From NCBI GenBank assembly GCA_037974965.1, contig JBBPFI010000009.1, forward strand, positions 620,001 to 684,000: a DNA stretch of 64,000 nt, written 5' to 3'. The position numbers were made by a program, and so were the translations under genes. The notes below the pieces were generated by a model. The model was given only the letters and a program-made list of their open reading frames with translations. It was not told the DNA's origin and did no database searches. This DNA is from Dacryopinax spathularia. Its lineage: Eukaryota > Basidiomycota > Dacrymycetes > Dacrymycetales > Dacrymycetaceae. Shown here in pieces: positions 59,500-63,559 of this stretch (within the stretch, counting starts at the first letter, position 1; every line of letters begins with the position of its first letter).

Positions 59500-60720
59500 A
59501 TAGACTATCCCGCAACATCAGGCGATCTAGGGAAATCGGTCAACCTTTGAAAGATCGCATTTATCCATACCCCATCCTTGTCGTACGCGTTGCACCTCCC
59601 ACATCGCCCATTGGCTTCGCTAAGCTCGCGACGCTTTTGACTTTCTGCCGTCGGAAGTGGACATGGGTCTTCGCATCGAGTCATGCCCTTGATATTGAAA
59701 TAGCCAGCTCCAGAGATATGATGCCCGTGGAAGGTTTCATATTCGTCCCACGGAAGTAACCGTATAATGTAATGATGCGATCGCACTTCGCCTCGAGCCG
59801 TATCCGCTCGCGGGGCGTTAGGTCCTCCGTACGATCGGCGAGCGATTATGGATGAGTATTACGGAACACAAGTGGGCGGAACTTCGTCACGTTCGTAAAT
59901 CGGCTCAGACTCTGGATTTCCTGATCGGGATAGCAGCCATTCAGAACTCCGGCCGTAGAAGACCTTTGCGATTTGATAGATCTCCGTCCAGAGCAGTTTT
60001 GGTCGGCTTCTTGGAGGCCTACAACGTGGCAGGTTTCTTGATCAGATCGAGGTGTGTAGGGACGCCAAGCACAATCGGAAAACCGTGCGACTGCAGGATA
60101 TGAGGAATTCGAAGGGTTCTAAAGGAAATATCAGAAAGTGTTAGGGGAGACGCACGAGAGTGAGAGATCTGCACACCATTTCGAAGCCAAAGAAATTATC
60201 AATCGTGAGCAAGACGAGATCAATAATCTTGCTTCTGTTGATCATGGACTTGAGGTCATTGTTGCCTCCGATAAATGTCAGACGACGGGTTTTGCCTATC
60301 TGCGCTGTCAGGTAAGAGTCGGCAGATCTTCATAGTACGATGCGCACCACGGACGACCATCGTAGAACCACCGATGTTTGATCCGAGGCTAGATTTGCCC
60401 ACTTCCAGCGGTACGGCAACGGTGACTAGGGGAGGCTGTGCCCGGGGGACAGAATGCTGTTGACCAGAGGTACATGAAGTCGTGTTTAATCGAGTTTCGA
60501 CTTTCCTCTGGCCTTGCCTACCAGCATTTCAGCCTGATTTGCGTGCAAAAGCCTGGGAACGATGAGCTGAAACAGTTGCGTCTGTCGACGACTGAGCACA
60601 CCATCTTGTTGAAACTCTTCTCGTGCTTCTTCTTTCCGGCTTTCTTTCCAGCCTTCACGGGGCTGGGCCTTCCTGTGAGCCTTTTGAGAACGTTCTTCTA
60701 TGGGTTTGAATACCAGGAAC
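59500..60720 (-). pseudogene. BMS1: Decayed N-terminal fragment of BMS1, ribosome-biogenesis GTPase
   Basis: Scattered across frames on the minus strand, in the right order, are pieces of Bms1, the nucleolar GTPase of 40S assembly. These are the HRKAQ-type basic N-terminus (near 60680), TRLHVPLVN (60485), a degenerate P-loop VGKSSL (60395), RRLTFIGGNNDLKSMI then LVLLTIDNFFGFEM (60285-60190), ILQSHGFPIVLGVPTHLDLI (60090-60040), VLNGCYPDQEIQSLSRF (59955), KFRPLVFRNTHP, EDLTPRERIRL then ITLYGY.RGTNM (59870-59750), and DPCPLPTAESQKRRELSE (59660). Introns are still recognisable, at about 60341-60293 and 60187-60121, so this was copied as DNA, not as mRNA. Several stops and frame changes break it, and the C-terminal two thirds are absent. 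It abuts the DUG2 relic in the same direction. Confidence 0.85.
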
Positions 60721-60774
60721 CAGGAGAGGTGATAGCTCTCAGTGTGAGAGTAGCTACTATTCGCCAGCGAAGGG

Positions 60775-63200
60775 GTCCGGACGGACACTTTCGTCCGGAC
60801 AGAATGGGGGATGACGGTCGAATTGTTCGGTCCTGAGCCGGCGAGGATATGGATGCCGAGGGAAGGCTCCCGCCATCGTGCGCGGAGGTTGGCGGCGGGC
60901 ATGCCGGTGATTAGGGAGAGGCGGCCGTAGGACTCGAGTTCGGCCTGTGTCGCTGGTCGCACATTTTCGTCTGTGTGGACATCAGCCGCAGGTCCAGCTG
61001 CAAGTATAGAGGGGACTTACATAACCCAGGATTTGAGACTTTATCTCCCGAAGACAGTCTAGCCAATAACTGCACCATACGGATACCCTAGTCAGCCGGT
61101 TATAAGACGGAAAGGGTTCGACCACGTACATATCAACCATTGTCTCCCTCACAGCGCCACCATCAACACCAGAACGCAGATCGGGCTGATCGCTCCTCAT
61201 CTCCAACGAAACATGTATAACTCCGCTCAACCTGTAAGTCAAGCACGGTGTGTCCTCTCCAATCCAGCACGAGTTGCTGGCCCAGCGGTGAGTGGCGTGA
61301 TCACAGGAAGATAGGCGAAGCAGGCAGGGCAGGTGGGAAGGAAGCGGGAGAAAATGCACCTAACAAGAATCGCGTCCACCCTACCGATCTGCTCCTTATA
61401 CCTCTGCGAGGCATCCCCAAAGCCTTCACTCCCGGCCTCCTCTGCGCCCTCGATGAGCAAAATTACAACCGCACCCAGCAGTCGTTTCGCGAGTAACTTT
61501 GATACGGCTATAGCGACGGCCATGATAGGTCCTCTGTTGTCCGTTACGTCTCCGCCGTACAAGTAGCCGTTCCGCCCCGTCAGGGAGAAAGGGGGAGACT
61601 CCCAACCGTAAGGTCGAGCGGCGATGACGTCGTAGTGGCCGTAGAAGAGGACCAGGGGCTTGGCAACAGAGGACTTGGCGGTACCTTGGAACGCGGCGTA
61701 GACGACGGGGTTGCGGCCTGGTTTGCTGGGTAGCTGGCAACAATGAGCTCAGCCACTCTGATACTACTGAGCAGAAAGAACGCACACCACATGAGCCTCG
61801 GCGCCCAACTGGGTGAAAATTCGCTTGAGGAACAACGCCGTCTGCCTGCAGTCCTCCCTGCTGGCATGGTTGCTCACAGATGGGAAGGCGGAAAAGTCCG
61901 TGAACGCCGCGACCAGGTCGTCAGCCTCCACATCCGGCCCAGTCCTGACGGAGCTGGCAAACGAGGATGGCTTCAGCTCAGGCGGCTTCTCAATCTCCCA
62001 TAGCTGTGATGACAGTCACCGCTTGAGTAGAGATAGGAGGGAGGAGCGGGCGAACCTTCATCGTGGTCTCTTTAAGCGCCCGTCACCAACTGATCGTGCT
62101 CGTCTCCCTCCCCTGCTGGAGCACACCGAGAAGCGACGATTATGGCGGAAAGAACACTGCCTTCGTGCGCTGCCCAGAATGCTGTTTGCTCGAATGAGCC
62201 GTTCCACCGCTGTTCCCTTGATCAATATACGTTCGTCAACTGAGCATCAAGAGCGGCGGACCTGGATGTACCCATTTGCCGAAGCGGCATACAGGTCGCT
62301 CCCCAGCAGCGTCAAGGCGAGGACATCTTCATTCTGATGCAGCCACGGTTAGACGATGTCATCCAGCGGGCGTAGAGCACGCACCTCCTGCGCGATAATA
62401 GTCCGTATGACCGCCCCAGTCTCAAGATCCCAAACCTTGATATACCCGCTCTGACAGCCAGCATAGACCGTATCCTCCCTGACAGCGAGGGAAAGCAAAC
62501 CTCCGCTCGTTCCCGCAAGCGTAGTGCGGAGCGTCAGACCGTTCGGCGTGCAGTTTCATATCTGTGCATGCGTCAACAACTGTCTAGGACGCGGTGCAAG
62601 GAGGCTGAGAACCGAAGCAGAAGAGGGGAATAGCGAGGGGAATGATAGTAGGGAAGAGTGCAAGGAAAAGGCAGCGCACCTTAACATCCTCATCCCCACT
62701 CCCCGTCCCCAGCCCGACCCCGCCCCCCTCCCCCGCATCCGCATGCCAATGAACAAGCGCCACAGCATACACATACCCCCAATGCGCACTCGGTACAATG
62801 TTCCCCCTCGGCACCTGCAGGACCTACCAGTCCGCTTGGACGTGCACCGTTTCGGGCACGGGGACGGTTGTCAGGCCGGTGTCTTCGAGTCGGGCGGCGT
62901 GGACGAACCGTGGGGAGGAGTTGAAGAATTTGTGCGGTTGGCGGTGGGGCGTGGGTGCGCCCGTGCTCGTGCCTGTACCCGATCCCGGGCCGGGGGTGCG
63001 GGTGGAAGGGGGGGGGGGGGGGGGAGGGGGGAGGGGGGGGAGGGAGCATGGGTGTTGGCGGCGGCGGCGGCAGTGGTGGTGTTGTCGGAAGAGGTAGGCG
63101 GCAGCAAGCGACAGTTGGCGAAAGAGTAGAACTGGATGGACGCGTCCTAACAGCCGAAATAGAGTACAGACTGAGTAGCGTTCACGAGTAGACGTCAAGC
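60775..63200 (-). pseudogene. DUG2: Decayed, truncated copy of DUG2 (WD40 plus M20 peptidase)
   Basis: Dug2 pairs with Dug3 in cytosolic glutathione breakdown. From right to left, WD40 pieces appear: VLYFGC and DASIQFYSF, PSAHWGYVYAVALVHWHAD, TVYAGCQSGYIKVWDLETG, DLYAASANGYIQ, RWNGSFEQTAFWAAHEGSV. The M20 peptidase follows: VLFYGHYDVIAARPYGWESP (metal His and Asp), GGDVTDNRGP, IEGAEEAGSEGFGD (catalytic Glu), LVSNSCWIGEDTPCLTYRL and AGSGPNNSTVIPHS. Introns are otherwise in place. Lesions: TAG at 63147-63149 where FGC-x-D should have Gln; TGA at 62556-62558 where K-I-x-N should have the WD40 Trp; and a frame change across a long G run near 63008-63040. The frame stays recognisable only to VSVRT near 60780. 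The last 200 or so residues of the peptidase are missing and BMS1 relic sequence follows. An N-terminal start may lie near 63500 but is not clear. Confidence 0.82.
63008..63041. repeat. Long G homopolymer tract
   Basis: A run of 17 G, then A, 6 G, A, 8 G, A lies in the DUG2 relic. The reading frame on either side of it differs. Tracts like this are prone to slippage and to sequencing error. Confidence 0.85.
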
Positions 63201-63559
63201 ACGGGAAGGAGGAGGTATATGGGCGTTAAGCTCTCTGTGGACCAAACCTGTGAGATCTGTCAGATGCTGCTCCTTGCTCGGACAAAGGGGGGAAAGCACA
63301 GAGGAGCGGGGGGAGGAAGAAAGGCGGGGAGGAGGAGGCGAGGCGACTAGAGGGCAGAGGGAAAGGGGGCAAGACGGAGGGGGAGGAAGGGAGAGAGCCC
63401 CAAAGCGTGGAGTTTACTCACCCGCACCGTACTGTACGGCGAGCAACATGCGGACTTGCCACTCCATGATTGAATCACATTTTGAATCTCCTCTCCGAGC
63501 TCTACAAGGACTTCGATCTGGTGGCTTGGATGATAGGTAGGCAACAGAGCGTCTATACT

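Follow-up and report, generated by a model that had tools for sequence, protein, structure and literature searches.

A dead DUG2 duplicate beside a BMS1 fragment in Dacryopinax spathularia, with an intact DUG2 elsewhere in the genome

Results

DUG2 and BMS1 fragments share a locus on scaffold 9

We analysed 64,000 nucleotides of scaffold 9 (contig JBBPFI010000009.1, positions 620,001 to 684,000; hereafter the window) from Dacryopinax spathularia, an edible jelly fungus of the class Dacrymycetes. Using blastn and an exon map, we delimited a DUG2 pseudogene fragment on the minus strand (60776..63438), which comprises exons 3-11 and the beginning of exon 12 from a 14-exon gene, with its introns retained. 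Searching the entire genome (29.2 Mb, 24 contigs) at the DNA level placed DUG2 at three sites: the window, scaffold 2:2538081-2540753 (83%) and scaffold 12:1002015-1004618 (81%). In pairwise blastn comparisons, the window fragment was 82.9% identical to the scaffold 2 copy over 2717 columns (E = 0) and 80.6% identical to the scaffold 12 copy over 2702 columns, while the latter two shared 87.4% over 3603 columns. DNA searches of the genome with all three loci yielded no further copy among the best-scoring candidates; when one WD40 exon was searched as protein, a fourth, weak match turned up on contig C5 (40% over 40 residues, E 0.004).

The DUG2 homology stops abruptly at 60776, within exon 12, and both fragment ends give way to other sequence, so that exons 1-2 and 13-14 are missing, together with the end of exon 12. 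The preliminary description had placed the copy at 60775..63200 and had noted a truncated 3' end; that truncation holds, but homology reaches up to 63438 and the 5' end is gone as well. The M20 part still matches in its raw frame (scaffold 9 681365-681649; 41.2 bits, cut-off 24.6), and a WD40 exon piece (62388-62555) matched no Pfam family on its own.

Only 25 bp away, on the same strand, lies a decayed 5' piece of BMS1, a ribosome-biogenesis GTPase (59558..60750; 78.5% identical to scaffold 2:2584881-2586132 in 1268 aligned columns). Its identity was taken from the scaffold 2 copy, which matches the ribosome assembly structures 7mq9 (E 4.7e-79) and 5jpq (2.9e-74) and carries an AARP2CN domain. 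Elsewhere in the window, the segment 50756-51600 has a 99% copy at scaffold 9:697139-697985 and partial copies at scaffold 9:708179 and 775289, and is thus a recent local repeat. The segment 53084-55286, with 65-76% matches on contigs C14, C8, C7, C12, C2, C9 and C10 (C2, C9 and C12 being scaffolds 2, 9 and 12), is an old repeat or a gene family near the fragments.

The window copy is disabled at multiple sites

Codon alignment to the intact copy revealed three in-frame stops on the minus strand: TAG at 63147..63149 and TAG at 62824..62826, both in exon 4 at glutamine positions, and TGA at 62556..62558 in exon 5 at a tryptophan. The first and last of these had been singled out beforehand as falling on an expected Gln and Trp, which the alignment confirmed; the stop at 62824..62826 had been missed, and the earlier total of two was therefore too low. 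The frame is also shifted three times, by a 22-base deletion in exon 4 (site 63182..63187), by a 29-base net insertion relative to the intact copy, again in exon 4, and by a 1-base insertion in exon 7 (62072..62078), all on the minus strand. The second of these events takes in the G-run (63008-63044; a C-run on the coding strand) to which a frame change had already been ascribed, correctly, with the insertion site at ~63021-63055 (feature 63008..63055, minus strand). The exact length of the G-run in the window copy could be off. Finally, the acceptor of exon 11 reads AT (61077..61078, minus strand), where both other copies have AG.

In total, the window copy carries 3 nonsense codons, 3 frame-shifting indels and 1 lost acceptor and lacks both ends, and no open frame runs through both DUG2 domains. 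Given these lost ends and the nonsense and frame-shifting changes, it should yield no working peptidase, and the proposal that this DUG2 copy is inactivated is borne out.

All nine introns of exons 3-12 are present and alignable in the window copy, with GT donors in 9/9 and AG acceptors in 8/9. As introns were retained, the duplicate was made at the DNA level, and a processed pseudogene arising by retroposition was ruled out. With 17/18 donor and acceptor dinucleotides kept, the copy may still be partly transcribed and spliced. RIP, too, was rejected as the origin of the stops, because private C>T changes in the window copy showed no CpA bias (CpA 11/285, CpT 21/293, CpG 14/347, CpC 15/394).

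Scaffold 12 carries a second broken copy

The scaffold 12 DUG2 copy is likewise broken: in the compared stretch, three codons are nonsense and four exon indels shift the frame, and homology starts within exon 2. It too is accompanied by BMS1, here in two pieces, one at 995834-997094 (94%) and one at 1000602-1001854 (93%); the latter shares 5 bases with the DUG2 piece, which runs from 1001850. On scaffold 2, DUG2 is followed by BMS1 on the + strand, ~44 kb apart. The window shows the scaffold 2 order minus the middle, whereas scaffold 12 has the opposite order, BMS1 first; a tandem duplication or a circular intermediate could have produced a joint of the scaffold 12 type. Beyond the DUG2 and BMS1 pieces, no shared sequence was found among scaffold 2 2534000-2549000 and 2579000-2591500, scaffold 12 990000-1012000 and scaffold 9 620001-686400.

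A degenerate tandem array (scaffold 12:995371-995833; period 15, ~30 copies) abuts the start of the first scaffold 12 BMS1 piece exactly, and ~3.5 kb of other DNA (scaffold 12:997095-1000601) stands in place of the middle of this BMS1 copy. An APH-family kinase-like frame (PF01636) was seen at scaffold 12:997238-997999.

An intact DUG2 is present on scaffold 2

The scaffold 2 gene spans 2537616-2541247 and has 14 exons, a single 888-codon frame, 12 GT-AG introns and one GC-AG intron, with exon borders that are our own reading of splice signals and frame. Its product has WD40 repeats (PF00400, 73.6 bits, cut-off 27) followed by an M20 peptidase (PF01546, 82.1 bits, cut-off 24.6) with its dimerisation domain (PF07687, 34.7 bits, cut-off 21). 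The best solved relatives by sequence are a cytosolic non-specific dipeptidase, a carnosinase-type dipeptidase and yeast DUG1 (4g1p). We take the gene to be DUG2 from this domain layout, which is that of fungal Dug2p.

The GC-AG intron is the last one (2541096-2541151); it starts with GCGCGT, which agrees poorly with the usual donor of such introns, and ends with AG. By eye, the broken scaffold 12 copy has GTGCGT at the corresponding place. Retention of this intron would remove the last 31 residues of the predicted protein, including a DQAHL stretch that we assume to hold a metal-binding histidine. The only intact DUG2 found thus carries a GC-AG intron; the gene is probably expressed, correctly spliced and active. 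Exon 5 (scaffold 2:2538953-2539129, 177 bases) holds 19/57 of the private exon changes of this gene, above its share, and gene conversion between DUG2 copies is a possible cause.

Partners of the Dug route are encoded in the genome

DUG1-3 form a fungus-specific glutathione pathway, according to a published account (PMC9012958). The preliminary description had warned that loss of DUG2 would mean loss of this route unless another copy existed, and had proposed searching the rest of the genome for a full-length DUG2 and for DUG3; such a search found both, on scaffold 2 and on contig C1, respectively. DUG3 is represented by a class II amidotransferase frame (a 334-residue stop-to-stop frame) that reaches the cut-offs of PF13230 (37.6 bits, cut-off 23) and PF13522, with a possible MCRW start exon upstream, seen by eye. 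Loss of DUG3 was ruled out because this PF13522 match reaches the PF13230 cut-off when its frame is scanned, and the match-less genome scan with PF13230 was therefore a miss of the scan; a search with PF00117 was uninformative for DUG3. A genome search found no second copy of the DUG3 locus at the DNA level.

A DUG1-like gene is indicated by an M20 exon on contig C10, which, as that one exon, matches cytosolic dipeptidase and DUG1 structures. Contig C3 carries a match to ChaC, which we take to be another glutathione-degrading family. Two similar genes, presumably of the glutamine-fructose-6-phosphate transaminase-like kind, lie ~14 kb apart on opposite strands at scaffold 2:1682466 and 1696623. 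The DUG3-like gene is the predicted candidate partner in a Dug2-Dug3 glutathione-cleaving complex. Since a complete and constrained scaffold 2 DUG2, DUG3 and a DUG1-like gene are all present, the cell has very probably retained the Dug route, and the predicted loss was not borne out.

Substitutions suggest different selective histories

We compared the three DUG2 copies in an alignment of exons 3-12 with 2564 ungapped sites (641/641/640/642 at codon positions 1/2/3 and in introns). Private substitutions in these classes numbered 4/2/51/49 for scaffold 2, 44/28/83/76 for the window and 21/16/52/73 for scaffold 12, and 33 sites differ in all three copies. The window copy thus has 231 private substitutions, 72 of them at the 1282 sites of positions 1 and 2. 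On scaffold 2, private changes fall at 6/1282 sites of positions 1 and 2 compared with 100/1282 sites of position 3 and introns (Fisher p ~8e-24). For the part compared (exons 3 to 12), this scarcity indicates that the scaffold 2 DUG2 was under selection for nearly all of its history, and strong purifying selection is the reading that the pattern supports.

We then classed changes in the 633 codons that are gap-free in all three copies, dropping codons that have gaps or contain a long insertion. Nonsynonymous, synonymous and stop changes numbered 6:51:0 (scaffold 2), 69:78:3 (window) and 36:50:3 (scaffold 12). Relative to a neutral N/S of 2.22 from the intron spectrum, these give rough ratios of 0.053, 0.40 and 0.325, respectively. 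Change that was neutral throughout was rejected on both the window branch (binomial p 3e-8) and the scaffold 12 branch (p 4e-7), and part of each branch therefore passed under selection, at the present or at a source locus. This suggests that both dead copies were partly constrained in the past. Under a simple mixture, the dead part makes up 37% (24-53%) of the window branch and, for scaffold 12, 30% (17-49%) of the branch.

The BMS1 pieces show little or no such bias. On scaffold 12, private changes fall at 12/574 sites of positions 1-2 and 10/402 elsewhere (p 0.67), and in the window at 73/574 and 68/402 (p 0.08). Within the window locus, changes at positions 1 and 2 are more frequent in BMS1 (73/574) than in DUG2 (72/1282; p 5e-7).

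Private substitutions in adjoining pieces of two genes, here a DUG2 with past selection and a BMS1 piece that was dead, or close to it, from the outset, may allow the death of a duplicate to be dated. On scaffold 12, the BMS1 branch (0.0225 per site; 0.014-0.034) overlaps the DUG2 dead time (0.029; 0.017-0.048). This agrees with the idea that the arrival of BMS1 killed this DUG2 by removing its first exon, but is no proof of it. In the window, BMS1 (0.127 at positions 1-2; 0.101-0.157) and the DUG2 dead time (0.046; 0.030-0.066) disagree, suggesting that DUG2 either stayed alive longer than the BMS1 piece or was added later from a source under constraint. Clock split depths per neutral site are similar for DUG2 and BMS1 in the window (0.106 and 0.098) and unlike on scaffold 12 (0.088 and 0.027). 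All dates are rough and clock arguments weak, because only three unrooted sequences are available and neutral-site rates differ between DUG2 and BMS1 (100/1282 vs 12/402 on scaffold 2, p 5e-4; 159/1282 vs 68/402 in the window, p 0.024).

Discussion

We consider it highly probable, from sequence comparison, that the window DUG2 is a dead duplicate whose intact parent is on scaffold 2. The duplicate would have arisen by copying of genomic DNA, beside a dead 5' BMS1 piece, and would since have been stripped of both ends and have accumulated nonsense and frame-shifting changes. For part of its history, here or at its source locus, it was probably a working gene. As a tentative and rather doubtful extension, the lineage may have had three working DUG2 copies (or have received them from diverged relatives) with a single DUG3, two copies dying in succession and the scaffold 12 copy at about the time when a duplicate of BMS1 came to lie across its promoter and first exon.

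Could sequencing or assembly errors explain the stops, the G-run and the truncation in what is really a working gene, as had been considered at the outset? Long G homopolymers are error-prone, and the window copy contains one. According to the published assembly report, the isolate has an estimated heterozygosity of ~5.1%, which makes haplotype mixing conceivable, and purging left one haplotype shown (PMC11066560). Errors would, however, have to account for 231 private substitutions at 2564 sites, including 72 at the 1282 sites of codon positions 1 and 2, and for the other sequence that replaces both fragment ends. The same report describes HiFi reads at ~319x with Omni-C, assembled with Hifiasm, purge_dups and YaHS (PMC11066560), a depth at which assembly error is a poor explanation; we judge it exceedingly improbable. 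A transposon that captures genes, such as a Helitron or Pack-type element, might have moved the fragments: pieces of two genes ~44 kb apart on scaffold 2 occur together at two other places, repeated DNA lies ~2-9 kb from the window fragments, and the repeat table in the assembly report lists 22 rolling-circle elements (20,551 bp; PMC11066560). Yet genome searches with the fragment loci found no repeated sequence directly flanking them, and transposable elements make up just 1.62% of the genome by the same account (PMC11066560), leaving such transport unlikely.

Two other readings concern function. In one, the Dug route is lost because each of the three DUG2 copies is dead or close to it, the scaffold 2 gene failing at its GC-donor last intron. 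The GCGCGT donor, against GTGCGT in the broken scaffold 12 copy, speaks for this, but the 6/1282 against 100/1282 private changes in exons 3-12 and the presence of DUG3 in the genome make it very improbable. The discovery of an intact DUG2 thus removes a false claim of pathway loss. The other reading accepts the dead duplicate and its intact parent but holds that the window and scaffold 12 copies have been non-functional since they were copied, their partial codon constraint reflecting the rooting or a donor since lost (in the form of a fourth copy, in the other nucleus or in a related species). This is quite conceivable, if less probable than a working past: three tips leave the root unplaced, the reported heterozygosity is high (PMC11066560), and the different neutral-site rates of DUG2 and BMS1 weaken clock arguments. 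Against it stand the rejection of all-neutral change on both private branches and the excess of position 1 and 2 changes in BMS1 over DUG2 at the same locus, although a lost donor is compatible with both results.

Our literature searches found no paper on DUG2 pseudogenes in fungi, and among papers on duplicated gene fragments, pseudogenes and purifying selection in basidiomycetes, none concerned DUG2 by its title or the start of its abstract. Compared with fungal DUG2 (Dug2p, the partner of Dug3p with WD40 repeats and an M20 peptidase), the window piece aligns to scaffold 2 exons 3-12, but has lost exons 1-2 and everything from within exon 12 onwards, and is damaged at seven more places. With disabling changes and a conserved relative elsewhere in the genome, it bears the marks of a duplicated (non-processed) pseudogene, which it resembles in its kept introns, stops, frame shifts, truncation and intact relative. 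It differs in the adjoining BMS1 piece, and the dead scaffold 12 copy has pieces of both genes in reversed order; the window locus is thus a duplicate pseudogene of the ordinary kind, although its two-gene layout is somewhat unusual.
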